Notes under the pieces: model-generated
Database searches by the model: none
The model's input: the letters and a program-made list of their open reading frames with translations, nothing else
What the model was told of the DNA's origin: nothing
In this document: positions 3,101-60,735 of the stretch, one piece after another
How positions within the stretch are numbered: position 1 is the stretch's first letter
Layout: each line of letters starts with the position of its first letter
Position numbers and translations under genes: made by a program
From: Chondrosia reniformis
Taxonomy: Eukaryota > Porifera > Demospongiae > Chondrillida > Chondrillidae
Assembly: GCA_947172415.1 (NCBI GenBank)
Contig: OX359198.1
Span: 3,007,401 to 3,071,400 of the forward strand
Length of the DNA stretch: 64,000 nt
Direction of reading: 5' to 3'

Positions 3101-6100
3101 CTACTTGTGTGTACTAGGTGTATGTACTAGTTGTATGTTCTAGTACTGGTTGTATTTACTACTTCTAGGTACTCTTTGTATGTACTAGCTGTATGGACTA
3201 GTACTAGTTATATTTACTAGTTGTGTGCACTAGTTGTATGCACTAATTGTAGGTTCTAGTACTAGTTTAACTATGTAATAGGTAGGTCCTTGTTTTATGT
3301 ACTAGTTGTTTGTACTCGTTCTATATACTAATTGTATGGACTAGTTGTATGTACTAGGTGTATGAACCAGTTATATGTAGTAGTTGTGTGTACTAGTTGT
3401 ATGTACTAATTGTAAGTATTAGGTGTATGTACTAGTTTTACGTACCAGTTGTATGTACCAGTTTTATGTGGTAGATTGATGTACACGTTCTCTGAACAAG
3501 CTGTGTGTACTAGTTGTATCTAATACTTCTATGAACTAGTTGTGTGTAATTGTTTATGTACAAGCTATATTTACTAGTTGTAGTTACTAGTTGTATGTAC
3601 TAGTTGTATGTACTAGTAACTAGTTGTATGTACAAGTTATATGTACTAGTTGTATTTATTATTTGAATGTGCTAGTTGTATGTTTCAGTTGTATGTACTA
3701 GTTGGATGTTCTAATTGTGTGTACTAGTTATATGTACTATATAGTTGTATGTACTCGATACTAGTTTGCGTACTAGTTGTTTGTACAAGTTATATTTAGT
3801 AGTTGTTTGTACTAGTTACATGTACTATTTGTATGTACTAATTGTATCTACTTGTTGATTTTACAAGTTGTGTGTACTAGTACTAGCTTTATTTATTAGT
3901 TGTAGGTACAAGTTGTATGTAATAGTTGTATGTAATAGTTTAATGTAATTGTTATATGTACTAGTTGTATGTACTAGTTGTATGTATATATTACTTGTCT
4001 GTACTAGCTGTGTACTAGTTAAATATACTAGTTTTATGTGGTAGTTTTATGTTCACGTTCTATGAACAAGCTGTTATGTACTAATGTCTTGCTGTTCGTA
4101 CTAGTTGTATGTATGAGTTTTGTGTACTCTTTTTATGTACTAGTTTAGTTGCATATACTAGTATCTAGTTGTATGTACTAGTTGTATGCACTGGTTGTGT
4201 GTTCTGGTTATGTATACTACTCGTATGTCCTAGTTGTATGTACTAGGTCTATGTACTATTTATATATACTAGTTATATGTTTATGTACTAGTTGTATATA
4301 CTAGTTGTAGGCTCTAGTTCTAGTTATACTATGTACTAGGTAGATCCTAGTTGCATGTACTATATACAAGTAGATGTACTATTTGTAGCTATATGTGTAT
4401 GTAATAAGTATATGTACTAGTGGTATGTACTAGTTGTATGTACTAGTAGTATGTACTAGTTATCTGTAGTAGTTGTGTGTACTAGGTGTATGTACTATTT
4501 ATATACTAGTTATATGTGTATGAACTAGTTATATGTACTAGTTGTATATACTAGTTGTGGGTTCTAGTTCTAGTTATACTAGGTACTAGGTAGATCCTAG
4601 TTGCATGTACTAGATACAAGTTGATGAACTATTTGTATGTACTAGTTATATGTGTATGTCATAAGAATATGTACTAGTTGTCTGAACTAGTTATATTGTA
4701 CTAGTTTTTTGGACTAGTTGTATGTACTAATTTTATGAACTTGTTCTATGAACTAGTTGTGTGTACTAGTTGTATTTGCTAGTTGTATATACTACTAGTA
4801 ATATATAATAGTTGTGTGTTCTAGTTATATGTACTAGTTGTATGAAGTAGGTGGATGTGCTAGTTTTATGAACTCGTATGTACTCATTGCTAGTTTTATG
4901 TACTAGTTGTATGTACTAGTTGCATGTATTAGTTGTATGTACTAGTTATATGTACTAGTTGTGTGAACTAGTTCTGTGTACTAGTTATATGAACTAGCTG
5001 TATGAAGTAGGTGTATGTACTAGTTTTATGACTCGTATGTACTCATTGCTAGTTTTATGTACTAGTTGTATGTACTATATAGTTGTATGTATTAGTTGTA
5101 TGTACTAGTTATATGTACTAGTTGTGTGAACTAATTCTGTGTACTAGTTATATGTACTAGTTGTATATACTAGTTGTATATACAAGTTGTAGGACTAGTG
5201 TTATGTAATAGTTGTATGTACTAGATGTATGTACTAATTGTAAGTACTTATTCTATGTACTAGTTGTATGAAGTAGTTGTATGTACTAGTAACTAGTTGT
5301 ATGTCCTAGTTGTATGTACTATTAACTAGTGGTATTGTCTAGTTGTATCTATAAGTTGTATGTATCAGTTGTATGTACTGTTTTTATGTACTGGTACCAG
5401 TTATATTTACTTGTAATCAGAAATAGTAGTATGTACTAGTTGTTAGTAATATTTATACATACTAGTTATATGTACTAGTTATATATACTATGTGTATGTA
5501 CTAGGTACATATACTAGGCATATATACTAGTGATGTACTTCTTGTATGTACTAGTTATATGCAATATGTTTATGTACTAGTTGTATGTACTAGTTGTATG
5601 TACTATTTGTAGGACTAGTTTTATGCACGAGTTGTATGTAGTAGATGTATTTGCTAGTTGTAAGTAAACGTTCTATGTACTAGTTTTATGAAGTAGTTGT
5701 ATATACTAGTTTTAGGTACAAGTTGTATGTACTGGTTGTATGTACTGGTAGCTAGTTGCATTTACAAGTTGTATGTACTATTTATATGTACTAGTACTAG
5801 TTTTATTTACTAGTTGTAGGTAATAGTTGTACGTACTGGTTGTAGGTACTAGTTGAATTTACTATCTTAATGTAACATTTGTAGGTACTAATTGTTTGTA
5901 CTCGTTCTATGTACTAGTTTTATGTACTAGTGGTATGTACTCATTCTATGCACTAGTTGTATGGACTAGTTGTATGTACTAGTTTTATAGACTAGTTTTA
6001 TGCAGTAGTTGTGTGTACTAGTTGTATCTAATACTTCTATGTACTAGTGGTGTGTAATTGTTTATGTACTAACTATATTTACTAGTTGTATGTACTAGTA

Positions 6101-7809
6101 ACTAGTTGTATGTACAAGTTAAATATACTAGTTGTATTTATTAGTTGTATGTGCTAGTTGTATGTTACAGTTGTATGTACTAGTTGTATGAACTAGTTGT
6201 ATGTACTCGATACTAGTTGTGTGTACTAGTTGTGCGTACTAGTTATATGTACTAGTTGTACGTATTAGTTGTATGTACTAGTTGTATGTACTAGTTGTAT
6301 GTACTAGTAACTAGTTGTATGTACAAGTTATATGTACTAGTTGTATTTATTAGTTGTATGTACTAGTTGAATGTACTAGTTGTTTGTACTGGTTCTATGT
6401 ACTAGTTGCAAGTACTAGTTCAATGTACTAGTTGCATGTACTAGTGTTATGCATTATTTATATGTACTAGTTGTAAATACTAGTTGTAGGTTCTAGTACT
6501 CGTTGTAACAGGTACTAGGTAGGTTCTATAGTTGTATGTACTAGTTCAATGTACCAGTTGGATGTTCTAGTTTTTGTTCTAGTTACATACACTATTTATA
6601 TGTACTAGTTACCTTTGTATGAATTAGTTTTATGTAGCAGTTGTGATTACTAGATATATGTACTAGTTGTGTGTACTAGTTGTATGTAGTAGTTGTATGT
6701 ACTAGTTGTATGTACTAGTTCAATGTGCAAGTTGTAGGCACTATTTATATGTACGCTTTGTATGTACTGGTTGTAAGTAGTAGCTGTATATACTAGTTGT
6801 AAGTACTAGGTGTAGGTTCTAGTAGTAGTTATACTAGGTACTAGGTTGGTACTATTTGTATATACTAGTTTTATGGACTAGTTGTATGTACTAATTGTTG
6901 TACTTGTTGTATGCACTCATACTTGTTGTATGTACTAGTTGTAAGTACTAGTTTTATGTACTCGATACTTGTTGTGTGAACTAGTTGTAAGTACTAGTTT
7001 TCGGTTCTAGTACTAGTTGTACTTGGTACCAAATAGGTTCTAGTTGTATGTACTAGTTCAATGTACTAGTGGTATGTTCTCGTTTATGTTCTAGTTGTAT
7101 ATACTATTTATATGTACTTGTTACTTGTGTATAGACTAGTTTTATATAGTAGTTGTGTGTACTAGTTATATGTGTATGTTAAAAGTATATGTACTAGTTG
7201 TATGTACTAGGTGTATGTAATAGTTATAGGTTCTAGTACTAGTTATTGTGGTTAATAGGTGGGTACAAGTTGTATGTACTACCTGTTTGTACTATTTGTA
7301 TGTATTAATTGTATGTACTAGTTGATTTTACTTGTTGTGTATACTAGTACAAGTTATATTTACTAGTTGTAGGTACAAGTTGTATGTAGTAGTTGCATGT
7401 GGTGGTTGTATGTACAAATTGCATGTACTAGTTGTATGTAATAGTTGAATGTACTAGTTATGTACCAATTGTATGAACTAGTTGTTTGTATGTATAATAT
7501 GTATGTACTAGCTGTGTACTAGTTGTATATACTAGTTTTAGGTGGTAGTTTTATTTTCACCTTCTATGAACTAGCTGTATGAACTAATGCCTTGTTGTTC
7601 ATCCTAATTGTATGTATGAGTTTTATGTACTCTTTTTATGTACTAGTTGCATGTACTAGTTTCTTGTTGTATGTCCTAGTTGTATGCACTGGTTGTGTGT
7701 ACTAGTTGTATATATTACTTGTTTGTCCTAGTTGTATGTACTAGGTGTATGTACTATTTATATATAGTAGTTAATTGTGTATGGTCTAGTTGTATGTACA
7801 AGTTGTGCG
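123..7809 (+). repeat. 13-bp minisatellite array, plus orientation
   Basis: Degenerate tandem copies of TAGTTGTATGTAC read on the + strand. The monomer holds the palindromes ACTAGT and GTAC. Variant monomers recur in series: the run around TTGTATCTAATACTT appears at 161, 3514 and 6022. Local direct duplications are visible at 715-905 (period about 111), 4321-4800 (period 250) and 4850-5160 (period 159). Apparent reading frames are noise: 3 x 13 nt equals 13 codons, so satellite reads as a pseudo-repetitive peptide with TAG stops. Nothing else is visible here. Confidence 0.95.
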
Positions 7810-9297
7810 TACCAGTAGTGCACACAACTGGAACATACAACTTGAACCTACAACAAGGAAATATTACTAGTACCTACAACTAGCAAACATAACTAGTACT
7901 AGTACTTAAATCTAGTACACACAACTAGTATATACAACAATTGCATGCAACTAGTACATACAACTAGTACATAAGACTAATACATACAACTAGTGTATAC
8001 AATTAGAACCTACAACTAGTAGATACAACTAGTACACACAACCTAAAACTATAGCTAGTACTAGTACATACAAATAGTACATACAAATAGTACAAGCAGT
8101 TAGTACATACAATTAGTACAAACAACTAGGATATACATACAACTAGTACATACAACTAGGTCATACAACTAGAACTACAAATATTATATAAAACTCGTCC
8201 AAAGAATGAGAACATAAAACAAGTACATTCAACTACTAGTACATAGAACGAGTACATACAACAAGTACATACAACTAATACATAAAACTAGTACATAGAA
8301 CTAATACGTACAACTAGTACATACAGCTAGTTACTAGTACAATCAACTAGTACATACAAAGAGTAACTACAACTTGTAAATATAGCTAGTATATACAACA
8401 ATAACACACTACTAGTACATATAACAAGTACGTACGCATATAACTACTACATATAAATATTACATACAAATAGTATATACAACTAGTTCATACAACTAGT
8501 ACATACAATTAGTACATACACTAGTACATACAACAATTACCCACAACTAGTTCTTACACCTAGTACATACAACTAGTATCAATTACATACAACTAGTGCC
8601 TACCTAGTACTTAGAATAACCAGTACTAGAACCTACAACTAGTAAATATAACTAGTACATACAACAATTACACACAACCAATACAATCAACTAGTACATA
8701 CAAATAGTACAAACAACTTGTACATACAACTAGAACCCACCTAGTACCAGGTACAACTAGCACTAGAACCAACAACAATTGCATACAACTAGTACATACT
8801 ACAATTATACATAACTAGTACATACAACTAGTACATACAACTAGAATCTAGTATATCTAGTACTAGAACCTACAACTAGTACATAAAACTAGTACATATA
8901 AATGATGCATACAAGTAGTATATAAAACTAGTAAATACAAATAGTACATACACCTAGTACATACAGATAGTAAATACAACTAGTGCATATAAATAGTACA
9001 GACAACTATATAGTACATACAACGGGTAAAGACAACTAGTGCATACAACTAGTACACACAACTAGTACATACAACTAGTACATACACTTAGTACAAACAG
9101 TATTACATACAACTATTACAAACAACTAGTTAATACACCTAGTATATACAATAATTACACACAACTAGTACATACAAATAGTACATACAACTTGTATCTA
9201 GTCCATGCAACTAGGATCTACAAAGTACCTAGTATAACTAGGACTAGAACCTACAACCAGTACATAAAACTAGTACATATAACTAGTTCATACAGCC
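7810..9297 (-). repeat. 13-bp minisatellite, minus orientation, duplicate of 38124-39799
   Basis: Orientation flips abruptly at 7809/7810: to the left the + strand reads TAGTTGTATGTAC, to the right ACATACAACTAGT. From TACCAGTAGTGCACAC (7810) onward the variant series matches 38124 onward almost base for base, apart from indels including about 110 bp near 38650 and about 180 bp near 39020 present only in the other copy. Homology stops at CAGCC (9297, equal to 39799), where the Naiad-type element begins. Confidence 0.92.
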
Positions 9298-9445
9298 TGG
9301 GTTAACAAGCTCCCCGTCATTAGGTAAAGGTAGGGTGCCTTGTGATGAAAAGTTAGCTAACTCTCCCCCATCTGTAGGTAGAGGGGTGCCTACTGGTGGG
9401 CAAGCTAGCCCCTCACTAGTTAAGAAGTGTAGCAATAAGCGGTGA

Positions 9446-10882
9446 AAAACATGTCCCTCTTTAGTTACTGGCCCTACTTTTAAGAGTTCAGTTACTGGCA
9501 GGACCTATCAAGTCCGTAGCCCTTGTGGTCCCCTAGGATGCCAGAGTAGGAATGTTGTGTATCATATTACTTGTAAACAATGTGATGTACAGTATGTAGG
9601 AGAAACCTCTCAGATGCTTAGGAGTAGAATGAACAACCATAGGACTAGTACCAAAGGTTTTAAGCCACTGTATCTTTACAATCACTTTAATTCTGATAAC
9701 CATAGTTTTGATGATGGCTTGATTATGCCCATAGAACAGATACCTGAGACACCTAATTCTACTAGCCTCAGACTACTGAGAGAAGCGTTCTGGTACAAGG
9801 AACTCTGCTCTATTTACCCATATGGACTGAACGATAACATTAAAGGCGTTGGCAATATTTCAAAACTTAAAAAAGAAATCATCGTATGGAACCTTTTTAA
9901 TCGCTTATCTCATAAAAGACGGCATCGGTGCTCCAATCTAAAATCGACAGGCAGTAGTAATAACACTGCCTACGACCCTGAATGGCTCAAAGAACGACTA
10001 CCACTTTACAAGAACGTGGGCTTTCTAGCCAAACTTAAACGCGATACTTTTGTATTACAAGCTCGACACCTTCATCGTTTGTTAAACTCGGTACAATGTC
10101 TCATCGATACCCTAGAAACACCTTTTCCACTTAGACTTATGCTAATGATTAAAGACGTTATCAAAGCACGCGCTTCAGCCAGCCTTCCCAAACACCCAAC
10201 GAAAACAACAAGTCCAGAAGGGTTTCTTAAAATCGTGTTTCATAATAAAGGTGTAGAAAAAATAGGCCTCTCAGGTATCTTAAACCAAAAGTTAGTGTTA
10301 GAAACTGTCCCACCCTTTATACAAAACAAAGAGCCCCCATGTGTAGTATATAAGTATACCCAACCAATAGGACCTCAAATCTTTAACTTTTCACAAACCT
10401 CTAAGTCAGATGTTTTTAGAAAACCAGAACCATGTGAGTGTCACAAGTCCCCCTTCATTTACAAGCCCCTAGGCCATGTTTTAACAGGTGATCTACGAAT
10501 TGTTAGTAACCCAAAACTTAGAAAACTTCTTAAGAAAGGACCAAAATTTAGAGAACCTAATAACTTTAATTGGGTAACTGCTTTAAAAATGTGTAAGGAA
10601 GGTCTTAGAAAATATAAGATTACCTGGGCCCGTAGAGAAAATGTATCTACTTCTGTATTTAGTGAGTGGGAAAATGCTGTACTTAAGAAAATTAATGATA
10701 GGATCTCTAAGCTGTCTAAATCGCATACCAAATCCTCAGTAGCCAAGAAGACCCTTACTTGCCCTAAAATTAAGAAATTCTTAGCAGACCTACATGATAA
10801 GTATGTTATAGCCCCTGCCGATAAGGCCTCTAATAATTTATATGTAAGTCCTACTATAGACAAATTATTAATGAAGAACTAG
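9446..10882 (+). pseudogene. GIY-YIG endonuclease, CxC linker and RT N-terminal region (copy A)
   Basis: The frame is open from 9446, after a TGA at 9443, to the TAG at 10880. No in-frame ATG precedes the nuclease; an ATG at 9451 is out of frame and a GTG lies at 9557, so the true start is unresolved. The GIY-YIG domain reads VYHITCKQC then QYVGET, followed by R-S-R-M-N-N-H and a second histidine (Cys-Cys-His-His, as in PLE nucleases), then REAFWYKEL and PYGLND for the conserved glutamate and asparagine region. CECHKSPF (CxC at 10433-10441) marks the interdomain linker. The end, DKYVIAPADKASNN, is the start of the RT fold. A missing T in the run near 10837 throws the rest out of frame. The protein would nick DNA and prime reverse transcription. 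Confidence 0.85.
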
Positions 10883-11799
10883 GCAGTACCTCCACTTATG
10901 CTAAATGTACAGTAGAACCCCAACAGTTAATTAGGAAACACATAGATTTCTTAAAACTAGAGAACTTAGAACCTAAACTAGACTGGTGTAACCTTCCCTC
11001 TTTTTACTGGATGCCTAAGCTACATAAGAACCCTTACAACTACAGATTCATAGCCGCCTCTCACAAATGTACTACCAAACCCCTTTCTAGATTTCTAAAT
11101 TCGGCACTCAGACTAATTCTCAAACATTTTAGAGAATACTGCCTAGGTATATATAGGAATACTGGTGTTAATGCCTTTTGGATAGTAGAAAACTCACTAG
11201 AAGTCTTAGATAGTCTTAGGTCTATACCCGCTAGAAAAGCCCAGCTAGCTAGTTTTGATTTTTCTACATTATATACAGCGATCCCCCATAACCTACTTAA
11301 AGATAAGATTACTAACCTAATTTATAGTGCCTATACCTGTAGAAAGTCCCAATATATAGAAGTCTGTCAGGATAAAGCCTTTTGGTCTAACAATGTCTCC
11401 AATAAAGCAGTCACAGCTGTTCATTTAGTAGAGCTCTTTAATTACCTTATTGACAACATTTATGTATGTGTAGACGGTTCTGTATTTAAGCAATGTGTAG
11501 GTATCCCTATGGGTACTGACTGTGCCCCTGTAGTTGCTAATCTTTTTCTGTTTGCCTATGAGTATGAGTTTATGAAAGGACTACTTAAGGATAACATCAC
11601 CCTAGCTATTAAATTTTCCAATACTTATAGGTATATTGATGACCTTTTATGTATTAACAACAAGGATTTTGAACGGTCAATTAGTGATATTTACCCCAAA
11701 GAACTTATTCTTAAAAAGACAAATACCAGCCCTAAAAAATCCCCCTTTTTAGACTTAGATATAACCATTACTAACAATCAATTTAATTCAATCATTTAG
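10837..11799 (+). pseudogene. Reverse transcriptase core of Naiad-type element (copy A)
   Basis: Continues the RT in the next frame from FICKSYYRQ; the frame is open from 10837 and the first ATG is at 11011 (MPKLHKNP). RT motifs in order: MPKLHKNPYNYRFIAAS; motif A SFDFSTLYTAIPH (around 11250-11290) with its aspartate; an insertion-like segment (CRKSQYIEVCQDKAFW); motif B GIPMGTDCAPVVANLFL (around 11503); motif C YRYIDDLL (around 11629) with the catalytic aspartate pair; then SPKKSPFLDLDI. The frame ends at TAG 11797 just after NQFNSII, where the expected segment leading to the thumb is missing, so an internal deletion is inferred. Length is well short of a full PLE RT. Confidence 0.85.
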
Positions 11800-12116
11800 A
11801 TAGTAATATTCCTAATACCCCAGCCTATGGTGTCTTTATTTCACAACTAATTAGGTATTCTAGAATATGTAGTGACTTCTCCAGTTTTCAGGCTAAAAGT
11901 TTTCAGTTATGCAGTAGGCTTATTAAGCAGGGTTACAAATACTTTAAGCTAAAATCAACCTTTAAAACCTTCCTATCCCGGCAGCCTCTAGTTAGAATCA
12001 AGTATAAGCAAAAAGTAGCTAGTATGCTTAAGGACTGTCTTGTGTTACCCCATATTGTGTTACCCCACCTCCAAAGAAATGTTACTACTAGAAGACCTAA
12101 GGGTAGACTTACGTAA
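11796..12116 (+). pseudogene. RT thumb/C-terminal fragment (copy A)
   Basis: A third frame, 107 codons to TAA 12114, reads LDSNIPNTPAYGVFISQLIR, then a CSDFSSF stretch and LIKQGYKYFKLKSTF. This matches the usual C-terminal region of PLE RTs (the AYGVYISQLIRY-type motif). It abuts the RT core frame with a frame change, as expected if a short segment was deleted. No endonuclease follows, which confirms the nuclease-first order. Confidence 0.75.
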
Positions 12117-12290
12117 TATGTCCTACTTGTGTCTATAGTTATGCTGAATCTGTTTTACCTGTAAAAGCAAGATTACTAATAGATTTATAATTAATTCATA
12201 AAAGTTAATTGGACCTACATTCTTTCATAAAATTAAATTTCATCATGTGTCTTAGTTAACACCTTATTTAACTTTTGGCCCAAAATAGTG

Positions 12291-12299
12291 TATATAAGG
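12291..12299 (+). promoter_or_regulatory. TATA-like box in 3' region of Naiad-type copy A
   Basis: TATATAAGG lies in the 3' non-coding part. The two other PLEs here also carry a TATA-like box in their 3' terminal repeat, so this may be the promoter supplied by a pseudo-LTR to a tandem copy. In copy B the matching site is in CTTATATACAC around 13600. Only the motif supports this. Confidence 0.35.
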
Positions 12300-12559
12300 C
12301 CCCTAGATTTAGCAGAGTGGGCCAAGGATTCACAGAAGATCAAGATAAAGAAAAAGATAAAGACTCCCAGGATCACTGATGAAGGGTGGAATTCCCAGAA
12401 ACGGCTGTGTGACCCAGTGGAGAAGAAGATGAAAGAACGGAAAAAGAAGGAAGAAACTCCTGTATATTAATCTAAAGCTCTCTTTAGGTTTAGTTCCCCT
12501 ATAGGCTCTTTTTACAGAATAGATATATAGCATGTAGGAAAATGGTATCTTAGATTTTT

Positions 12560-13339
12560 CTTGTGTGTACTAGTTGTATGTACTAATTTTATGTACTGTA
12601 CTGTGTATATACTAGTTTTCTCTACTAGTTGTATGTACTAGTATTAGTTATATTTAATAGTTGTTGGTATTATTGTATGTAGTAGTTGGATGTAGAAGTT
12701 GCATGTACGAATTTTATGTACTAGTTGTAAGAACTAGTTGCATGTACTAGTTATGTACCCAATGTATGTACTAGTTGTATGTATATACTAGTTTCTAGTT
12801 CTATGCATTAGTTGTATGTACTGGTTGTGTGTACTAGTTGTTTAAAATACTTGTATATCATAGTTGTATTTACTAGGTGTACTTACCATTTATATAAACT
12901 TGTTATATGTGTATGTACTAGTTATATGTTCTAGTTGTGTCTAATTGTTGTATGTACTAACTATATTTACTATTTGTAGTTGCTAGTTGTATGTACTAGT
13001 TGTTGTACCAGTAATTAGTTGTATGTTCTAGTTGTATGTACTAATTGTATGTATTTTATGTATATACCAGTTTTAGGTTCTAATTGTTTGTACTAGTTGT
13101 ATGTAATAGCTATATTTACTAGTTGTAGGCACTAGTTGTATGTATTAGTTGTATGTACTAGTTCTATGTCTAGTTGTTAGTTCTTGTACTAGTTTATACT
13201 AGGTCCTAGGTAGACCTTAGTTGTATATTCTGGATAGAAGTTGTATGTACTAGTTTTATATACCAGATGTGTGTATGTTGTTGTATATACTAGTAGTATG
13301 TCCTAGTTGTATGTCCTAGTTGTATATACTAGTTGCATG
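12560..13339 (+). repeat. Inverted satellite segment between the two Naiad copies
   Basis: The + strand reads TAGTTGTATGTAC here although the flanking arrays read the opposite way. Its reverse complement matches 40043-40818 variant for variant, for example the markers around AGTTTTCTCTA, GTAGTTGGATGTAG and TTCTGGATAGAAG. In that paralog, and in array segments near 59100-59170 and 60060-60110, the sequence is in the normal minus orientation. The segment has therefore been flipped between the inverted elements. Confidence 0.9.
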
Positions 13340-16247
13340 AAAAATCTAAGATACCATTTTCCTACATGCTATATGCCTATTCTGTAAAAAGAGCCTATAG
13401 GGGAACTAAACCTAAAGAGAGCTTTAGATGAAGATACAGTAGTCTTTTCTTCCTTCTTTTCCCTTCTTTCATCTTCTTCTCCACTGGGTCAGACAGCCGT
13501 TTCTGGGAATTCCACCTTTCATCAGTGATCCTGGGAGTCTTTGTCTTTTTCTTTATCTTGATCTTCTGTGAATCCTTGGCTCACTATGCTAAATCTAGGG
13601 GCCTTATATACACTATTTTGGCGCCAAAAGTTAAATAAGGTGTTAACTAAGACACATGATGAAATTTAATTTAGGTCTTCTAGTAACATTTCTTTGGAGG
13701 TGGGGTAACACAATATGGGGTAACACAAGACAGTCCTTAAGCATACTAGCTACTTGTTGCTTTAACTTGATTCTAACTAGAGGCTGCCGGGATAGGAAGG
13801 TTTTAAAGGTTGATTTTAGCTTAAAGTATTTGTAACCCTGCTTAATAAGCCTACTGCATAACTGAAAACTTTTAGCCTGAAAACTGGAGAAGTCACTACA
13901 TATTCTAGAATACCTAATTAGTTGTGAAATAAAGACACCATAGGCTGGGGTATTAGGAATATTACTATCTAAATGATTGAATTAAATTGATTGTTAGTAA
14001 TGGTTATATCTAAGTCTAAAAAGGGGGATTTTTTAGGGCTGGTATTTGTCTTTTTAAGAATAAGTTCTTTGGGGTAAATATCACTAATTGACAGTTCAAA
14101 ATCCTTGTTGTTAATACATAAAAGGTCATCAATATACCTATAAGTATTGGAAAATTTAATAGCTAGGGTGATGTTATCCTTAAGTAGTCCTTTCATAAAC
14201 TCATACTCATAGGCAAACAGAAAAAGATTAGCAACTACAGGGGCACAGTCAGTACCCATAGGGATACCTACACATTGCTTAAATACAGAACCGTCTACAC
14301 ATACATAAATGTTGTCAATAAGGTAATTAAAGAGCTCTACTAAATGAACAGCTGTGACTGCTTTATTGGAGACATTGTTAGACCAAAAGGCTTTATCCTG
14401 ACAGACTTCTATATATTGGGACTTTCTACAGGTATAGGCACTATAAATTAGGTTAGTAATCTTATCTTTAAGTAGGTTATGGGGGATCGCTGTATATAAT
14501 GTAGAAAAATCAAAACTAGCTAGCTGGGTTTTTCTAGCGGGTATAGACCTAAGACTATCTAAGACTTCTAGTGAGTTTTCTACTATCCAAAAGGCATTAA
14601 CACCAGTATTCCTATATATACCTAGGCAGTATTCTCTAAAATGTTTGAGAATTAGTCTGAGTGCCGAATTTAGAAATCTAGAAAGGGGTTTGGTAGTACA
14701 TTTGTGAGAGGCGGCTATGAATCTGTAGTTGTAAGGGTTCTTATGTAGCTTAGGCATCCAGTAAAAAGAGGGAAGGTTACACCAGTCTAGTTTAGGTTCT
14801 AAGTTCTCTAGTTTTAAGAAATCTATGTGTTTCCTAATTAACTGTTGGGGTTCTACTGTACATTTAGCATAAGTGGAGGTACTGCCTAGTTCTTCATTAA
14901 TAATTTGTCTATAGTAGGACTTACATATAAATTATTAGAGGCCTTATCGGCAGGGGCTATAACATACTTATCATGTAGGTCTGCTAAGAATTTCTTAATT
15001 TTAGGGCAAGTAAGGGTCTTCTTGGCTACTGAGGATTTGGTATACGATTTAGACAGCTTAGAGATTCTATCATTAATTTTCTTAAGTACAGCATTTTCCC
15101 ACTCACTAAATACAGAAATATATACATTTTCTCTACAGGCGCAGGTAATCTTATATTTTCTAAGACCTTCCTTACACATTTTTAAAGCAGTTACCCAATT
15201 AGAGTTATTAGGTTCTCTAAATTTTGGTCCTTTCTTAAGAAGTTTTCTAAGTTTTGGGTTACTAACAATACGCAGGTCACCTGTTAAAACATGGCCTAGG
15301 GGCTTGTAAATGAAGGGGGACTTGTGACACTCACATGGTTCTGGTTTTCTAAAGACATCTGACTTAGAGGCTTGTGAAAAGTTAAAGATTTGAGGTCCTA
15401 TTGGTTGGGTATACTTATATACTTCTCATGGGGGCTCTTTGTTTTGTATATGGGTTGGACAGTTTCTAACACTAACTTTTGGTTTAAGATACCTGAGAGG
15501 CCTATTTTTTCTACACCTTTATTATGAAACACGATTTTAAGAAACCCTTCTGGACTTGTTGTTTTCGTTGGGTGTTTGGGAAGGCTGGCTGAAGCGCGTG
15601 CTTTAATAACGTCTTTAATCATTAGCATAAGTCTAAGTGGAAAAGGTGTTTCTAGGGTATCGATGAGACATTGTACCGAGTTTAACAAACGATGAAGGTG
15701 TCGAGCTTGTAATGCAAAAGTATCGCGTTTAAGTTTGGCTAGAAAGCCCACGTTCTTGTAAAGTGGTAGTCGTTCTTTGAGCCATTCAGGGTCGTAGGGA
15801 GCGTTATTACTACTGCCTGTCGATTTTAGATTGGAGCACCGATGCCGTCTTTTATGAGATAAGCGATTAAAAAGGTTCCATACGATGATTTCTTTTTTAA
15901 GTTTTGAAATATTGCCAACGCCTTTAATGTTATCGTTCAGTCCATATGGGTAAATAGAGCAGAGTTCCTTGTACCAGAACGCTTCTCTCAGTAGTCTGAG
16001 GCTAGTAGAATTAGGTGTCTCAGGTATCTGTTCTATGGGCATAATCAAGCCATCATCAAAACTATGGTTATCAGAATTAAAGTGATTGTAAAGATACAGT
16101 GGCTTAAAACCTCGGTAGTAGTCCTATGGTTGTTCATTCTACTCCTAAGCATCTGAGAGGTTTCTCCTACATACTGTACATCACATTGTTTACAAGTATT
16201 AAGATTCACAACATTCCTACTCTGGCATCCTAGTGGACCGCAGGTCT
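13340..16247 (-). mobile_element. Naiad-type Penelope-like element, copy B (inverted, 5'-truncated)
   Basis: Inverted copy of 9525-12559. It shares the 3' end exactly with copy A and is truncated at the 5' end just upstream of the GIY-YIG domain. Its outer flank CCATATAACTAG (16248) continues the satellite series at 40823, next to where the loop homology ends (40818), so the insertion point is known to a few bases. Relative to copy A it lacks about 120 bp corresponding to 12101-12229. Confidence 0.85.
13643..16247 (-). pseudogene. Endonuclease-RT pseudogene of Naiad-type copy B
   Basis: Same domain order as copy A, read on the minus strand: GIY-YIG (CKQCDVQYVGET, below 16247), nuclease body and linker (16048-15398), RT N-terminal part (15179-14886), RT core with GIPMGTDCAPVVANLFL and YRYIDDLL (14931-13969), thumb fragment (13972-13643). 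It shares with copy A the frameshift at the start of the RT core and the deletion before the thumb. It has private one-base deletions near 16113 and 15455. Substitutions relative to A are few (FERSISD against FELSISD), so the copies are recent relatives. Confidence 0.85.
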
Positions 16248-19200
16248 CCATATAACTAGTACATACAACTAGTACATACAACTAGTACATACAACTAGTA
16301 CATACAACTAGTACATAGAACGAGTACATAAAACTAGTACATAAAACTAGTGCATACAACTGGTACATAACTAGTACATACAACTAGTACATAAAACTAG
16401 TACATATAACCAGTACATATAACTATTACATACAAGTTCTACGTATAACTAGTACCTAAAACTAGTAGATATAATTTGTACTAGTATATACAATTAGTAC
16501 AATCAACTAGTACATACAATAAGTACATCCAAATAGTACAAACAGCTAGTACATACAACTTGTATCTATCTAGTACCCACTATAACTAGTACTAGAACCC
16601 ATCACTATTACATACACCTAGTACATACAACTAGTACATATGCTTATTACGTACACATATAATTAGTACACAACTACTACATAAAACTGGTCAATACACA
16701 GGTAACTAGTACATATAAATAGTATATACAGCTAGAACATAAACTAGAACATACCACTAGTACATTGAACTAGTATATACATACAACTAGAACCTATCTA
16801 GTACCTAGTACAATTAGTACTAGAATCTACAACTAGTACTTACAACTAGTACATACAACAAATATCGAGTATATACAACTAGTACATACAACTAGTTCAT
16901 AGAAATAGAAACTAGTACAAACAACTAGTACACACAACTACTACCTGTAACTAGTACAAACAACTAGTACATACAACTAGTACATACAACTAGTACATAG
17001 AAGCAGTACATAAAGGTAGTACATACAACTAGTGTATACAATTGGTACATAACTAGTACATACAACTAGTACATACAACCAGTACCTACAACTAGAGATG
17101 TAACCTGTACTAGTACTTACAATTAGTACAATCAAGTAGTACCTACAATTAGTACATACAAATTGTACATACAGCTAGTACATATACTTATTACATACAC
17201 AAATAACTAGTACATACAAAAAGTTCATCAACTTGTATCTAGTACATGCAACTAGGATCTACCTAGTACCTAGTATAACTAGAACTAGAACCTACAACTA
17301 GTATATACAACTAGTACAAATAACTCGTACATACACCTATAACTAGTATATATAAATAGTACATACACCTAGTACATACAACTAGGACAAACGAGTAATA
17401 TATACAACTAGTCCACACAACCAGTGCATACAACTAGTATATACAACTAGAAACTAGTACATGCAACAAGTACAAAATAAGAGTACATAAAATGCATACA
17501 TACAACTAGTACGAACAACAAGACACTAGTACATACAGACAGTTCATATAACGTGAATTTAAAACTACCACATAAAACTAGTATATACAACTATTACACC
17601 GTTAGTACATACAAGAAATTTATTCATGCAAATAGTACAATGAACTAGTCCATAAAACTAGTTCATAAAACTAGTACGTACATTTCGTATCTTTAACGAG
17701 TAAATATAACTAGAACTAGTTCATACAAGTAGTACATACAACTACATAAAACTAGACCCACAATTAGTACAGACAACTAGTACCGATTACTAGTTCATAC
17801 AAGTAGTACATACAACCAGACCATACAACTAGTACATACAACTAGTAAATAGTACATAAAACTAGTACATATAACTAGTACATACAAGTAGTACCTACAA
17901 CTTGTTAATATTACCAGTACTAGTACCTACAACTAGTGCCTACAACTAGTACACACAACTAATACGTATAACTAGTACATACATTAGAAGGTACAACTAA
18001 AACTTATAACTAGTAACTAGTACATATAACTAGTACATAAAAATAGTACATACAACCAGAACATATAACTATATAGTACATACAACTAGTAAATAGTACA
18101 TACAACTAGTTCATATAACTAGTACATACAAGTAGTACCTACAACTATTTAAAATTACCAGTAATAGTACCTACAACCAGTTCCTACAACTAGTTCATAC
18201 AACTAGTACGTCAAAAGTGCATAAAACTAGTTAAGACAACAAGCACAAACAACTACAACATAACTACTACATGCAACTAGCATGTACAACTAGAACATAC
18301 AATTGGTACATACAACTATTACATCAAACCTGTACATACAGCTTTTACCTACAACTAGTAAATAAACCTAGTACTAGTGCATACAACTATTACATGTAAC
18401 TAGTTCATACAACTAGTAAATATTACTACTATATACAACTAATACAATCAAAATAGTCCATAAAACTAGTTCATACAACTAGTACGTACATGTAGTATCT
18501 TCAACGAGTAAATATACGAGTACTAGTTCATACAACTAGTACATAAAACTAGCAATGTGTACACACGATTACTTACAACTAGTACATAAAATTACTTCAT
18601 ACCACTAGTACATATAACTTATTACTTACATCTAGTACATACGACGAGTATCTACAACTATTACATAAAACTAGATCTAAAATTAATACATACAAGTAGT
18701 ACACACAAGTAGCAACTAGTACATACAACCAGACCATACAACTACTACATACAACCAGACCATACAACTACTACATACAACCAGACCATACAACTACTAC
18801 ATACAACCAGACCATACAACTAGTAAATAGAAATAGCAAATAGTACATACAACTAGTACATATAACTAGTACATACAAGTAGTACCTATAACTAGTTAAT
18901 ATTACTAGTACTAGTACCTATAACTAGTTCCTACTACTAGTACACACGGCTAGTACATATAACCAGTACATATAACTAGTACATACACCTAGTACTTACA
19001 ACTAGTAAATAGTACATACAACTTGTACATATAACTAGTAGATACAAGTAGAACCTACAACTATAGAATATTACCTGTAATAGTGCCTACAACTATTTAA
19101 TATTACCTGTAATAGTATCTACAACTAGTTCATACAACTAGTTCATACAACTAGTACATAAAAGTGCATAAAACTAGTTAAGACAACTAGCACAAACAAC

Positions 19201-25249: not shown

Positions 25250-25350
25250 TTTGAAGATCTCTGTGTGGCTAGGTGTATTCATGCTTCAGAATCTGGAACG
25301 GCACTAGCCAAGGGATTGGGACAGATGTCGCTTGTCAATGATTACCAAAC

Positions 25351-25379
25351 GTTTCAACCCAATCTCGGGTCTTCATCAG
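25351..25379 (-). ncRNA. Hammerhead-ribozyme-like core, left PLE end
   Basis: On the minus strand the 3' non-coding region reads CTGATGA (25373-25379), a short stem-loop closed by ACCC and GGGT, then GAAAC (25351-25355), followed by GTTTGGTA, which can form the tiny two-pair stem III with a GUA cleavage triplet. Canonical PLEs are known to carry hammerhead motifs in their pseudo-LTRs. Stem I pairing was not convincing by eye, so activity is uncertain. Confidence 0.5.
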
Positions 25380-25406
25380 TGGTAGTGAGATTACAGGGCA
25401 TGGTGA

Positions 25407-25415
25407 CTTATATAT
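25407..25415 (-). promoter_or_regulatory. TATA-like box upstream of ribozyme-like core (minus strand)
   Basis: ATATATAAG on the minus strand, 28 bp before the CTGATGA core; the mirror copy is at 27404. Position within the pseudo-LTR suggests a promoter; only the motif supports it. Confidence 0.35.
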
Positions 25416-25595
25416 CGGTAGGGGGAGGGGCAGGTGAGATGGCTGTGGGCGGGAAAATAGTGGGCGAGAAGCTGGGAGTGTGGGTGGTCACGTGAGGTAT
25501 ATTTTATGCAGTAAGATAAAACAAACAGTGCAGTAAGGAAGGAATAAATAGTGAAAGTGTGTGACTGGATGGGTCAAGGGGTGGGTGGGGCTTGA

Positions 25596-27222: not shown

Positions 27223-27403
27223 TCAAGCCCCACCCACCCCTTGACCCATCCAGTCACACACTTTCACTATTTATTCCTTCCTTACTGCACTGTTTGTTTT
27301 ATCTTACTGCATAAAATATACCTCACGTGACCACCCACACTCCCAGCTTCTCGCCCACTATTTTCCCGCCCACAGCCATCTCACCTGCCCCTCCCCCTAC
27401 CGA

Positions 27404-27411
27404 TATATAAG
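27404..27411 (+). promoter_or_regulatory. TATA-like box, right PLE end
   Basis: TATATAAG lies 28 bp before the ribozyme-like CTGATGA, mirroring the left end; a possible pseudo-LTR promoter. Confidence 0.35.
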
Positions 27412-27438
27412 TCACCATGCCCTGTAATCTCACTACCA

Positions 27439-27475: not shown

Positions 27476-27535
27476 ATCATTGACAAGCGACATCTGTCCC
27501 AATCCCTTGGCTAGTGCAGTTCCAGATTCTGAAGC

Positions 27536-38033: not shown

Positions 38034-41000
38034 TAGTAACTAGTACATACAACTGGTACACAAAACCAGTTCATATAAGTAGAAAACACAACTATATAGT
38101 GCATACAACAAGTTACTCTTAGTTACCAGTAGTGCACACAGCTGGAACATACAACTTGAACCCACAACAAGGAAATATTACTAGTACCTACAACTAGCAA
38201 ACATAACTAGTACTAGTACTTAAATCTAGTACACACAACTAGTATATACAACAATTGCATGCAACTAGTACATACAACTAGTACATAAGACTAATACATA
38301 CAACTAGTGTATACAATTAGAACCTACAACTAGTAGATACAACTAGTACACACAACCTAAAACTATAGCTAGTACTAGTACATACAAATAGTACATACAA
38401 ATAGTACAAGCAGTTAGTACATACAATTAGTACAAACAACTAGGATATACATACAACTAGTACATACAACTAGGTCATACAACTAGAACTACAAATATTA
38501 TATAAAACTGGTCCAAAGAATGAGTCATAAAACTAGTACATTCAACTAATAACTAGTACATAGAACGAGTACATACAACAGGTACATACAACTAATACAT
38601 AAAACTAGTACATAGAACTAGTACGTACAACTAGTACATACAGCTAGAACATACAAATAGTACATGCAACTAGTACATGCAACAATTACATACAACTAGT
38701 ATATACAACGAGTTTATACAACTAGACACATACAACTAGTACATACAACTAGTTACTAGTACATACAACTAGTACATACAAATAGTAACTACAACTTGTA
38801 AATATAGCTAGTATATACAACAATAACACACTACTAGTACATATAACAAGTACTTACACATATAACTACTACATATAAATATTACATACACCTAGTACAT
38901 ACAACAATTTCCCACAACTAGTTCAAACACCTAGTACATACAACTAGTATCAATTACATACAACTAGTGCCTACCTAGTACTTAATAACCAGTACTAGAA
39001 CCTACAACTAGTACATTCAACTAGTACATACATCTAGTACATATAACTAGTACACACAACTACTACATACAATTAGTCCATACACAGTTAACTAGTAAAT
39101 ATGAATAGTATATAAAACAAGAACATAAAACTAGTACACACAACTAGTTACTAGGTCTTACAACTAGTACATACAACTAGAACCTAAAACTAGTAAATAT
39201 AACTAGTACATACAACAATTACACACAACCAATACAATCAACTAGTACATACAAATAGTACAAACAACTAGTACATACAACTAGAACCCACCTAGTACCA
39301 GGTACAACTAGCACTAGAACCAACAACAATTACATACAACTAGTACATACTACAATTATACATAACTAGTACATACAACTAGTACATACAACTAGTATTG
39401 AGAAACTAGAACTGGTACAAACAACTAGTACATATAAGTAGTACATACAACTAGTACATACAACTAGAATCTAGTATATCTAGTACTAGAACCTACAACT
39501 AGTGCATAAAACTAGTACATATAAATGATGCATACAACTAGTATATAAAACTAGTACACACAGCTAGTACATACAACTAGGACATACACTTAGTACAAAC
39601 AGTATTACATACAACTATTACACACAACTAGTTAATACACCTATTATATACAATAATTACACACAACTAGTACATACAAATAGTACATACAACTTGTATC
39701 TAGTCCATGCAACTAGGATCTACCTAGTACCTAGTATAACTAGGACTAGAATCTACAACCAGTACATACAACTAGTACATATAACTAGTTCATACAGCCA
39801 GTATATACACCTAGTACACGCAACTACTACATATAACGTGTACATACACAGATAAGTAGTACATATAAATAGTATATACAACTAGAACATAAACTAGAAC
39901 CTACAACTAGTACATCCAACTAGTACATACAACTAGAAGCTACCTAGTACGTGGTACAACTAGTATTTGAACCGACAACTAGTATCTACACATAGTAATA
40001 CAACTATTATCGAGTACACACAACTAGTACAAACCACTAATACATGCAACTAGTATATACAACTAGGACATACAACTAAGACATACTACTAGTATACACA
40101 ACAAATACACACATCTAGTATATAAAACTAGTACATACAACTTCTATCCAGAACATACAACTAGGATCTACCTAGGACCTAGTCTAACTAGTACAAGAAC
40201 CAACAACTAGAGCATAGAACTAGTGCATACAACTAATACATACAACTAGTGCCTACAACTAGTAAATATAGCTCTTACATACAACTAGTACAAACAATTA
40301 GAACATAAAACTGGTATATACATAAAATACATACAATTAGTACATACAACTAGAACATACAACTAGTTACTGGTGCAACAACTAGTACATACAACTAGTA
40401 ACTACAAATAGTAAATATAGTTAGTACATACAACAATTAGACACAACTAGAACATATAACTAGTACATACACATATAACAAGAGGATATAAATGGTAAGT
40501 ACATCTAGTAAATACAACTAGGATATACAAGTATTTTAAACAACTAATACACACAAGCAGTACATACAACAAGTGCATAGAACTAGAAACTAGTATATAC
40601 ATACAACTAGTACATACATTGGGTACACAACTAGTACATGCAACTAGTTCTTACAACTAGTACATAAAATTCGTACATGCAACTTCTACATCCAACTACT
40701 ACATACAATAATACCAACAACTATTAAATATAACTAATACTAGTACATACAACTAATAGAGAAAACTAGTATATACACCTAGTACATAAAATTAGTACAT
40801 ACAACTAGCACACACAACTACTCCATATAACTAGTACATACAACTGGTACATACAACTAGTACATACAACTAGTACATAGAACGAGTACATAAAACTAGT
40901 ACATAAAACTAGTGCATACAACTGGTACATAACTAGTACATACAAGTAGTACATTAAACTAGTACATATAACTAGTACATATAACTATTACATACAAGTT

Positions 41001-41640
41001 CTACATACAACTAGTACCTAAAACTAGTAGATATAATTTGTACTAGTATATACAATTAGTACAATCAACTAGTACATACAATTAGTATATCCAAATAGTA
41101 CAAACAGCTAGTACATACAACTTGTATCTATCTAGTACCCACTATAACTAGTGCTAGAATCTGTAACTATTACATACAGCTAGTACATACAATTAGTACA
41201 TATAAGTAGTACATTCAACTAGTACACATACTTATTACAAACACATATAACTAGTATATACATAATAGTACAACATCTTGTATCTAGTACATGCAACTAG
41301 GATTTCCTAGTACCTAGTATAACTAGAACGAGAACCTACAACTAGTATATACAAGTAGGACATATAACTAGTACATACACATATAACTAGTATATATAAA
41401 TTGTACATACACCTAGTACATCCAACTAGGATATACAAGTAATACATACAACTAATACACACAACCAGTGCATACAACTAGTACATACAACTAGAAACTA
41501 GTACATGCAACTATTATATAGAAAGAGTACATAAAACTCATACATACAACTAGTACCAACAACAAGACACTACATACAGCTACTTCATAGAAGGTGAACA
41601 TAAAACTACCACATAAAACTAGTATATACAACTAGTACAC
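38034..41640 (-). repeat. 13-bp minisatellite, uninterrupted paralog of 7810-16600
   Basis: 38124-39799 matches 7810-9297; 40043-40818 matches the inverted loop 12560-13339; 40823-41240 matches 16248 onward. 38305-40200 matches 56745-59190, and 40299-41300 matches 59609-60660. It serves as the empty-site reference for the Naiad pair and for the short linker (insertion at 40297/40298). No gene seen. Confidence 0.92.
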
Positions 41641-57600: not shown

Positions 57601-59243
57601 AGTACCTACAATTAGTTAATACAACTAGTACTAGTACAAAACACTAGTAGATACAATTAGTATATACACCTACTACATACAACTAGTACATACAACTAGT
57701 ACCCACAACTACTACATAAAACTAGTACATACACATATAATTAGTACATATAAATAGCACTTACAACTACTAAATACAAGAAGTACATACTAGTGATATA
57801 TAGCTAGTACATACAACTAGTACATATAATTAGTGCATACAATTAGTACATAGAAATAATACATGCAATTAGTACATACAAATAGAACAAACAGGTAGTA
57901 CATACAACTTGTACTTACCTAGTACCCACTATAACTAGTACCATAAAGAACCTATAACTATTACATACAGCTAGAACATATATACAACTAGTACATATAA
58001 CTAGTACTTACAACTCGTTCATATAACTAGAGCATACAACTAGTACATACAAATAGTAAGTACATGTAGTACGTACATGTACTTAACACAACTAGTACAT
58101 ACAACTAGTCCACACAACTAGTACTAACAACTAGTACATATAACTAGTACCTACAACCCGTGCATATAACTAGTGCATACAACAATTACCCACAACTAGT
58201 TCATACACCTAGTACATACAACTAGTATCTAGTACATACAACTAGAACCCTCCTAGTACCTGGTACAACTAGCACTAGAACCAACAACAATTACATACCA
58301 CTAGTAAATACTACAATTATACATAACTAGTATATACAACTAGTACATACAACTAGTATTGCGTACATAGAACTAGTACAAACAACTAGAACGTAGTATA
58401 ACTAGTACTAGAACCTACCACTAGTATATACAACTAGTACATATAAATGATGCGTACAACGAGTACATAAAACTAGTACATACAAATAGTACATAAACCT
58501 AGTACATACAGATAGTAAATACAACTAGTGCATATAAATAGTACAGACAACTAGTACATACAACTGGTAAAGACAACTTGTGCATACAACTAGTACACAC
58601 AACTAGTACATACAACTAGGACATACAATTAGTACATGCAGTATTACATACAACTATTACACACAACTAGTTAATACAAATAGTACATACAATAATTACA
58701 CACAACTAGTACATACAAATAGTACATACTACTTGTATCTAGTCCATGCAAATAGGATCTACCTAGTACCTAGTATATATAGGACTAGAACCTACAACCA
58801 GTACATACAACTAGTACATATAACTAGTTCATACAGCTAGTATATACACCTAATACACGCAACTACTACATATAACTAGAATAAACACAGATAACTAGTA
58901 CATATAAATAGTATATACAACTAGAACATAAACTAGAACATACAACTAGTACATACAACAAGTACATACAACTAGAAGCTACCTAGTACGTAGTACAACT
59001 AGTATTAAAACCTACAACTAGTATCTACACTTAGTAATACAACTATTACACACAACTAGTACAAACAACTAGAACAAACAACTAGGACATACAACTAGGA
59101 CACACTACTAGTATATACAACAAATACACACATCCTAGTATATAAAACTAGTACATACAACTTCTATCCAGAACATACAACTAGGATCTACCTAGAGCAT
59201 AGAACTAGTACATACAACTAGTACATACAACTAGTACAAACAA
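54678..59243 (-). repeat. 13-bp minisatellite array, minus orientation
   Basis: A condensed, collinear paralog of the main array: 55110-55560 matches 28500-28960, 55955-56590 matches 34640-35240, and 56745-59190 matches 38305-40200. It lacks the PLEs present in the main array. It breaks off at the short linker. No gene seen. Confidence 0.93.
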
Positions 59244-59608
59244 GGAGTTTGAGTTTAAAAAATTCGTGGGTGCCAGGCGCCCCTTAATAAACTCGAACTA
59301 CTTGGCTAGTTCTTATAGATATCTGGTTAACCGATTTCCGATCGACTCTTGTTGGCCGTCAATTTTTCAAGGCCATATCTCGTAGAAAACGATTTTGCGC
59401 AAGCTTTACGTTGCATAGTATTAGTAAGGGTGGTTTTTAAGTCCATTTTGTTCGTTCAATGTTCTACGCTAAGGAAGAGAAAGCTAATTTTAAGCTAGAA
59501 AACGTCCGCCATTTTTTGACAGATATATATATATATATATACAAGACTAGGAACAGGAAGCCATACGTTAACATAATTTCTGAAAATAATATAGGGGCGA
59601 CCCAAAAA
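59244..59608. mobile_element. Short linker element (365 bp)
   Basis: Left half (59244-59521) matches 47890-48196 and right half (59542-59608) matches 51880-51950, joined by a TA tract. Satellite on the left ends ACAAACAA and resumes TTAAAACATAAAAC; the uninterrupted paralog reads ACAAACAATTAGAACATAAAAC at 40290-40310, so this is a clean insertion at the equivalent of 40297/40298. The hairpin at 59246-59299 forms its left tip. No protein. Confidence 0.8.
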
Positions 59609-60735
59609 TTAAAACATAAAACTAGTACATACATATAATACATACGATTAGTACGTACAACTAGAACATACAACTAGTTACTGGTACAACAACTAGTACA
59701 TACAACTAGTAACTACAAATAGTAAATATTGTGAGAACATACGACAATCAGACACAACTAGAACATATAACTAGGTCACCTAGTACATACAACTAGGATA
59801 TAGAAGTATTATAAACAACTAGTACACACAACCAGTACAACCAGTGCATAGAACAAGAAACTAGTATATACATACAACTAGTACATAGCTAGTACATACA
59901 AGTAATAAATACATACAACTAGTACATACAATTGGTACATAACTAGTACATGCAACTAGTTCTTTAACTAGTACATAAAATTCATGCATGCAACTTCTAC
60001 ATGCAACTACAACATACAACTATCCCAAAAACTATTAAATATAACTAATACCAGTACATACACCTAGTAGAGAAAACTAGTATATACACCTAGTACATAA
60101 AATTAGTACATACAACTAGTACATAGAACAAGTACATAAAACTAGTACATAAAACTAGTGCATACAACTAGTACATATAACTAGTACATATAACTATTAC
60201 ATACAAGGACTACATTCAACTAGTACTTACAACTAGTAGATATAATTTGTATTAGTATATACAATTAGTACAATCAACTAGGACGTACAATTAGTACATA
60301 CAAATAGTACAAACAGCTAGTACATACAACTTGTATCTATCTAGTACCCACTAAAACTAGTGCTAGAATCTGTAACTATTACATACAGCTAGTACATACA
60401 ACTAGTACATATAACTAGTACATTCAACTAGTACATATACTTATTACAAACACATATAACTAGTACATTCAACTAGTACATATACTTATTACAAACACAT
60501 ATAACTAGTACATTCAACTAGTACATATACTTATTACAAACACATATAACTAGTACATTCAACTAGTACATATACTTATTACAAACACATATAACTAGTA
60601 CATACATAATAGTACATCAACTTGTATCTAGTACATGCAACTAGGATCTACCTAGTACCTAGTATAACCAGAACTAGAACCTACAACTAGTATATACAAG
60701 TAGGACATATAACTAGTACATACATATATATAAAG
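59609..60735 (-). repeat. 13-bp minisatellite array, minus orientation
   Basis: Continues the series exactly where 54678-59243 left off (equal to 40298 onward), ending at the second foldback-tipped element. No gene seen. Confidence 0.93.
60421..60600. repeat. 45-bp unit repeated four times
   Basis: CATTCAACTAGTACATATAC begins at 60421, 60466, 60511 and 60556; the four 45-bp copies look identical. 45 is not a multiple of 13 because the unit contains an aberrant monomer (TTATTACAAACACATATAAC). The paralog near 41216 has one copy. Confidence 0.93.

Follow-up and report, generated by a model that had tools for sequence, protein, structure and literature searches.

The inversion 2z3 of Drosophila buzzatii was made by ectopic recombination between copies of Galileo (PMC2775673), and in the Drosophila virilis group inversions are mediated by DAIBAM (PMC6278893), as described in the available parts of both reports. 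In Adineta vaga, Penelope sequences form inverted structures of pseudo-LTR and spacer, which the accessible text of that report explains by capture and self-priming (PMC3846280).

Satellite arrays, too, contain segments that change orientation; what causes this is difficult to trace, since the history is erased by the repeats. We have analyzed a stretch of 64,000 nucleotides from the sponge Chondrosia reniformis (the window), in which a satellite segment lies inverted between two Penelope-like elements (PLE), copies A and B (Table 1). Ectopic crossover with gene conversion between these opposite copies very probably flipped the segment, as for Galileo in Drosophila. One genome shows the empty site, a damaged locus with only the first insertion, and the final exchanged state. 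The locus is a new and well documented case of a known process and is instructive as an example. The literature searched yielded no published work on the satellite and transposable elements of C. reniformis.

Layout of the inverted segment

Table 1. Features of the inverted segment and its uninverted paralogs in the window.
Feature	Coordinates	Strand	Description
Left flank	8625..9297	+	Satellite; homologous to 39176-39799 (blastn: 87.5% overall, 97% over the last 198 bp)
Copy A	9298..12560	+	Naiad-like PLE; GIY-YIG N-terminal, RT after, currently split over two frames
Tract of copy A	10725..12003	+	Element positions 1428-2706; two differences from B; exclusive changes common to A and B
Loop	12561..13339	-	Satellite segment, opposite in orientation to both flanks; reverse complement of 40043-40817
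Copy B	13340..16245	-	Naiad-like PLE, orientation opposite to A
Right flank	16246..16641	+	Satellite; homologous to 40821-41203
Uninverted, uninserted paralog	39176..41203	+	Left flank, 39800-40042 (missing after 9297), loop 40043-40817, right flank
Second uninverted paralog	58363..60412	+	More diverged, 84-93%; additional bases inside loop

The satellite of the array has a repeat unit of 13 bp. A first-pass annotation had recognized the loop as an inverted copy of an array segment, which is borne out with corrected ends: the loop aligns to the minus strand of 40817-40043 with 95.8% identity over 780 columns (blastn), whereas in direct orientation nothing else in the window matches it at more than 74%. 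The annotation had also matched the flanks directly to 39799 and 40823; orientation and the first coordinate stand, but the second does not. The blastn match of the right flank pairs 16254-16641 with 40816-41203 on the plus strand (95.4%), and by direct reading of the junction the flank starts at 16246, equivalent to 40821, with one extra 13-mer. The 243 bp (39800-40042) reported as lost at the left insertion are indeed absent according to the flank matches, and on the right side 3 bp are absent (40818-40820). The uninverted order noted near 59100 and 60060 is real, but these are not two array positions; they belong to the one diverged paralog.

The 5' end of copy B corresponds to about position 227 in the numbering of A, and copy B also lacks 129 bp of copy A near 13671. 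As a control of orientation, 30 random plus-strand segments were compared with the rest of the window: six had their best match in opposite orientation, four of them to a minus-oriented stretch left of 7810 and two to the loop itself. An inverted match is in itself nothing unusual in this array; the remarkable feature is the colinear plus/minus/plus sandwich bounded by two elements.

Naiad-type PLEs carry a GIY-YIG domain N-terminal to the reverse transcriptase. A 973-aa frame of the family (L009) appears to have this order: its N-terminal piece contains GIY-YIG at amino acids 102-135 (E 1.1e-4), and its C-terminal piece contains RVT_1 (E 5.6e-6); both scores lie near the Pfam cut-offs, that of RVT_1 below, and RVT_1 is absent from the scan of the whole 973 aa. 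The RT piece had no match among PDB sequences. Many fetched copies carry up to 768 bp of 3' end upstream within the 1-kb flanks examined, and show in this way the pseudo-LTRs from partial tandem copies that are a trait of Penelope-like elements; these upstream pieces stop about 179 bp short of the point at which A begins.

Paralogous loci and the order of the insertions

We have compared paralogs of the locus, not alleles. Thirteen loop matches at 90% or more were listed, two within the window (one being the loop itself) and five that were fetched; six further loop paralogs at that level were left out. The order left flank, 243 bp, loop is uninverted in all seven paralogous segments examined, followed by the right flank in five and by a stub of the first element (E1) in two. 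The string CTA/CTCCATATAAC, in which the slash marks the point where the right flank starts, is intact in four uninserted paralogs (39k, L050, L052 and L053), so that the A3'-loop and B5'-right-flank junctions represent the two halves of one clean insertion site. The diverged 58k paralog does not have the exact string.

The A3'-loop junction recurs on C4 and C6 beside an uninverted loop and without B. The tails of both stubs carry the same two microindels as copy A, one extra A and the loss of 3 bp, which occur in only 3 of the 60 element 3' ends that could be scored; of the 62 ends found, 2 were too short. These observations place E1 beside the loop before the second element (E2) landed in opposite orientation. 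The two insertions are therefore not contemporaneous, a point that goes beyond the earlier account. The window loop is closest to that of the C4 locus (97.8%), and a tree of loops groups it with those of C4 and C6 with a support of only 63, which we have not taken as proof. By substitutions the C4 tail differs from the A tail at 14 of 271 sites and from the B tail at 12 of 269, so that A is no closer and the link to E1 rests on the junction and the microindels. At element positions 2875 and 3021 the state of A differs from that of the stubs covering them. The provable E1 ancestry in copy A is limited to approximately its last 120-250 bp.

An intact locus with E1 only was not found, the stubs being about 414 bp (C4) and 325 bp (C6) long. 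Their 5' sides are joined to oppositely oriented satellite, which is a further rearrangement. The exact A5' and B5' junction patterns occur in the window only, and the B3' pattern has two other matches, on C3 and C14; at the B 3' junction stands TTTTTCAT, as is usual in the element family. A locus on C13 (L054) with the same CTTG junction was read as an independent insertion, having neither the shared microindels nor a good loop match.

Proposed exchange and conversion between copies A and B

The target halves are exchanged between the two copies: 39799 and 40817 surround A, and 40043 and 40821 surround B. This test uses flank sequence, target duplications being absent, and neither copy is flanked by its own target halves, as the first-pass annotation required. 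Together with the uninverted order in the seven paralogs, it supports the proposal of two opposite Naiad-type insertions followed by crossover. The junctions show that a 5'-truncated Naiad-like Penelope retrotransposon, E1, inserted in minus orientation between the equivalents of 40817 and 40821 in the 13-bp satellite array. E2 would have landed later, in plus orientation and some 0.8 kb further left; its 3' end would have come to lie at 40043, and its 5' end next to 39799, with the loss of 243 bp. Pairing of the inverted copies and a crossover, either intrachromosomal or involving sister chromatids, would then have turned the 779-bp segment around, with long tracts gene-converted alongside. 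Copy A would consist of a young 5' part from E2 and an old 3' end from E1 (the last ~120-250 bp), mosaic between, and copy B of a 5' part from E1 and a 3' part from E2.

Copies A and B were aligned with 36 long copies, excluding pieces in L045 and L046 and the loci L001-L008, which repeat loci already counted; at least 44 element matches exist, and the best 40 of 2021 first-look candidates were scored. A and B have in common 10 exclusive substitutions, four of them in one filler, while none other of the 703 pairs has more than two, and they also have two exclusive indels in common. A scan for the near-identical tract of Table 1 (1.28 kb) gave a best 1278-bp window with three A/B differences, matched by none of 2000 random placements. 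On this alignment the tract can be read as gene conversion, with the crossover probably inside it or between it and ~12440. The idea that a stretch near 2487, absent from A and B, was a spliced intron was dropped: some 56 bp of other copies are replaced by 7 bp in A (net 49), by eye a deletion with filler.

Private substitutions in the 5' and 3' parts number 4 and 10 in A, and 14 and 1 in B (p=0.0005 by sites, p=0.019 by events). The A sites 3150-3156 are alignment shifts from the tail microindels, and some B sites lie beside small gaps; with sites within 20 columns of an indel set aside, the counts are 4 and 7 in A, and 11 and 1 in B (p=0.009 by sites, 0.057 by merged events). In the filtered switch scan, 202 of 10000 shuffles by sites and 2019 of 10000 by events did as well, the merged-event tests not being significant. 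The reciprocal old and young pattern along the copies thus appears only moderate. At the subfamily sites 1117, 1195 and 1353, A is of one type and B of the other; these sites and the tail microindels of A agree with chimeric copies. The change point in B falls at 1942-2022 by subfamily sites and the break at 2715-3018 by private sites, and positions 2707-2932 of B hold three private changes and a deletion. The annotation had called both elements chimeric and had expected a switch of divergence along them: the exchanged halves fit the former, the sequence signal for it is only moderate, and a switch is seen, but not one clean switch point. Gene conversion, which the earlier account did not include, makes A and B mosaics without such a point.

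Alternative explanations and known systems

The inversion could have been coupled to the insertion itself, if target-primed synthesis of E2 caused a DNA break close to E1 whose ends were then rejoined, or repaired on E1, giving insertion, 243-bp loss and inversion in one step. A Penelope protein cleaves and extends both DNA strands in vitro, according to the accessible part of that report (PMC11167929), and the loss at the E2 site is compatible with repair of a broken target. However, for its length the near-identical tract holds fewer private changes than the E2-only parts do (1 in 2558 bp versus 7 in 1758 bp, p=0.0095; filtered, 1 in 2408 bp versus 7 in 1564 bp, p=0.008), so that the last conversion looks later than the insertion, and we consider this one-step origin improbable; that last conversion could represent a second exchange. 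An assembly artefact would give the same pattern if the assembler had jumped from one inverted copy to the other within the near-identical tract of a locus that really has the uninverted order E2-loop-E1, and satellite arrays are hard to assemble. Against it, the window contains no N, and the available text of the genome paper gives 10.31 Gb of HiFi data in 0.80 million reads (~70x, hifiasm, QV 69.8), that is, a mean read of ~12.9 kb by division; typical reads should then span the structure of 6.95 kb, making a mis-join very unlikely.

Two other origins have been rejected. The exclusive changes common to A and B might suggest one element copied by template switching together with the inversion, but the 3' end of B lacks the tail changes and microindels of A and has the family's usual junction, and 229 bp of 5' sequence in A have no counterpart in B, which leaves hardly any weight for such an inverted duplication. 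Still less credible is that A, loop and B form a single insertion with captured host DNA in the style of rotifer Pen1, even though rotifer Penelope elements have captured-DNA spacers of 0.9-1.5 kb and inverted-repeat structures in the part of the report available (PMC3846280): the target misses the loop plus 243 bp plus 3 bp, the right flank starting 3 bp from the loop end, a coincidence that capture would need.

Crossover with conversion between two separate insertions is thus our preferred reading, and it makes a Penelope-like retrotransposon a likely substrate for inversion and gene conversion in a candidate centromeric array of a sponge. In two lineages, that of the window and that of the C4/C6 locus, E1 lies where the array changes orientation. 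It is a long shot that PLE insertions repeatedly drive polarity switches in this satellite, which may mark the centromeres of this sponge; if they did, retrotransposons would contribute to shaping the domains of candidate centromeres.

Among the systems described, and as far as the available parts of the reports go, Adineta vaga resembles the sponge locus in its inverted PLE sequences, with or without captured DNA, but is explained by capture and self-priming instead of two insertions and an exchange (PMC3846280). Ectopic recombination of transposons is the inferred cause of inversion both for DAIBAM and here, although DAIBAM is a MITE whose inversions lie between and within Drosophila species, whereas here a satellite segment is inverted (PMC6278893). 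Galileo 2z3 shares with the sponge locus the two opposite copies at the breakpoints, the exchanged target halves and, less firmly in the sponge, the chimeric copies (PMC2775673), and the ancestral order is also known in the sponge. Galileo is a DNA transposon and 2z3 a large chromosomal inversion, in contrast to a Penelope-like retrotransposon and a segment of 779 bp; the sponge locus differs further in its lack of target duplications, its long shared tracts and its statistically weaker chimerism. Unlike Galileo 2z3, the sponge genome holds a locus in which the first insertion is preserved and the second is absent (PMC2775673).

The element pair and the inverted satellite loop

The window consists mostly of an imperfect 13-bp satellite broken up by Penelope-like elements (PLEs). 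As assembled, the region 9298-16245 holds one element in two copies of opposite orientation, A and B, whose 3' ends point inward. They share 98.6% identity across 2574 aligned columns and 95.2% across the last 335, and between these two stretches there are 129 bp present in A and absent from B. Another copy has a 973-aa open frame with a GIY-YIG match near the N-terminus, the only domain listed by the whole-protein scan; a reverse transcriptase (RT) match after it was seen when the C-terminal piece was scanned alone. This is the domain order of Naiad-type PLEs, and the element is a candidate Naiad-type PLE. Many of the fetched copies carry pseudo-LTRs.

The 779-bp loop between A and B corresponds to 40817-40043 in reverse (95.8%), whereas its best direct-orientation match elsewhere in the window reaches only 74%. 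The flanks match in direct orientation, the left one ending at 39799 and the right one beginning at 40821. This bears out the inversion of the loop relative to its flanks proposed in the first-pass annotation. As a control, 30 random segments of the array were compared with the rest, and 6 of them match best elsewhere in opposite orientation (2 of these 6 to the loop itself). Such a match is therefore not unusual here, and the evidence is the exact +/-/+ sandwich rather than the inversion of the match by itself.

Positions of the features in the window
Feature	Position	Strand	Remarks
Left flank	8625-9297		
Copy A	9298-12560	+	
Loop	12561-13339	-	
Copy B	13340-16245	-	
Right flank	16246-16641		
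Uninverted, uninserted paralog (39k)	39176-41203		
243-bp piece	39800-40042		missing after 9297
Satellite polarity switch	7800-7830	- to +	no transposon seen at junction
Different PLE kind	25250-27537	both	GIY-YIG frame after RT frame; coding parts outward-pointing
Recent higher-order tandem unit	32194-32941		303 bp x 2.5, 95%
Recent higher-order tandem unit	42514-43447		302 bp x 3.1, 98%
Recent higher-order tandem unit	60407-60617		45 bp x 4.7, 98%

The exact 32-base junction pattern of the polarity switch is unique to that site in the genome. At the different PLE kind the satellite is + on either side, and no inversion was seen there. A second site with adjacent opposite-orientation copies of the A/B family, a few bases apart, was found in L045 (C9:3757075-3766165).

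Uninverted paralogs and the order of the insertions

The genome searched comprises 15 contigs (117,379,552 bp); for this assembly, odChoReni1.1, the published account gives a scaffold N50 of 8,459,200 bp and an N90 of 6,903,244 bp (PMC12181767). Loop-satellite matches were listed on at least 12 of the 15 contigs (C2-C4, C6-C14). Among them, the matches fall in one region per contig, at about 30-51% along it where the contig extent was seen, making this a candidate centromeric satellite.

Seven paralogous segments were examined (two in the window, five fetched), leaving out six more listed at ≥90%. In all seven the left flank leads into the 243-bp piece and then into the loop, so that the uninverted order is indeed preserved elsewhere, as had been claimed, and the right flank comes next in five. 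In 39k and three fetched loci (L050, L052, L053) the loop is followed by CTA and then by CTCCATATAAC, precisely at the start of the right flank beside B. Therefore, the A 3'/loop and B 5'/right-flank junctions are two halves of one insertion. This first insertion, E1, was clean and removed 3 bp at its site.

On contigs C4 (L049) and C6 (L051), the right end of the loop adjoins the 3' end of an element of the same family, at the junction base of A. The tails of A, C4 and C6 have in common one extra A and the loss of 3 bp, which occur in only these 3 of the 60 scorable 3' ends (62 found, 2 too short). The junction pattern matches a fourth time on C13, where the microindels are lacking and the flank is different. 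Counting substitutions alone, the tail of A is no closer to that of C4 (14/271) than the tail of B (12/269), and it is the junction, together with the microindels, that ties the A tail to C4/C6. The C4 and C6 flanks are 99.0% identical over 925 bp, and in C6 681 bp of the satellite and a portion of the element stub have been lost relative to C4; judged by sequence, the two loci are copies of one locus. The satellite locus L049/L055 (C4) and L051 (C6) is duplicated between chromosomes, with a polarity flip at the element stub.

Both loci lack B and retain the 243-bp piece, and retrotransposons are not known to excise precisely; thus, E1 predates E2, the second insertion of opposite orientation. 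The other side of the C4/C6 stub abuts opposite-polarity satellite, so this lineage was rearranged again, which speaks against a simple picture.

Probable exchange between the copies and known systems

A crossover between E1 and E2 would make the 5' part of B and the 3' end of A old, and the 5' part of A and the 3' end of B young. Private substitutions were scored against 36 other copies in regions 230-1427 (5') and 2933-3263 (3') in the numbering of A. Part of the private sites are alignment shifts next to indels, and the filtered set has none within 20 columns of an indel. Unfiltered 5'/3' counts were 4/10 for A and 14/1 for B (p=0.0005), or 4/6 and 12/1 as merged events (p=0.019). The divergence switch anticipated along A and B was recovered in part: the filtered sites lean reciprocally (A 4/7, B 11/1; p=0.009), but the filtered events reach only p=0.057 (A 4/5, B 9/1). 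The switch scan gave 202 (sites) and 2019 (events) per 10000 shuffles filtered, and 5 and 430 unfiltered. Filtered private change is higher in E1 parts (18 in 1365 bp) than in E2 parts (7 in 1564 bp; p=0.014), and by subfamily sites 1117, 1195 and 1353 the 5' parts of A and B fall in different subfamilies. A and B are likely chimeric, mainly from the exchanged junctions, the substitution pattern lending only moderate support.

Within 1428-2706 there are two A/B differences, and the best 1278-bp scan window, with 3, was matched by 0 of 2000 random placements. A and B exclusively share 10 substitutions (four inside one filler), a 7-bp deletion and the replacement of ~56 bp by 7 bp; any other pair shares at most 2 exclusive substitutions (703 pairs). 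The tract has less filtered private change (1 in 2408 bp) than the E2-only parts (7 in 1564 bp; p=0.008), suggesting that the last gene conversion was later than the insertion of E2. B changes at 1942-2022 by subfamily sites, the break by private sites lies at 2715-3018, and A is provably E1 only beyond about 3021-3146; thus, no single crossover point can be fixed.

Less probably, insertion and inversion were one event, and the cleavage and extension of both strands described for a Penelope protein in vitro (PMC11167929) are compatible with this. As for ectopic recombination between E1 and E2, the proof given for Galileo inversion 2z3 is that the copies lie in opposite orientation, that target halves are exchanged between them and that the copies are chimeric (PMC2775673). 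The first two features are found here and the third is likely, and the A-loop-B arrangement is, by analogy, a new instance of this known signature, differing from 2z3 in involving a Penelope-class retrotransposon and a satellite segment.
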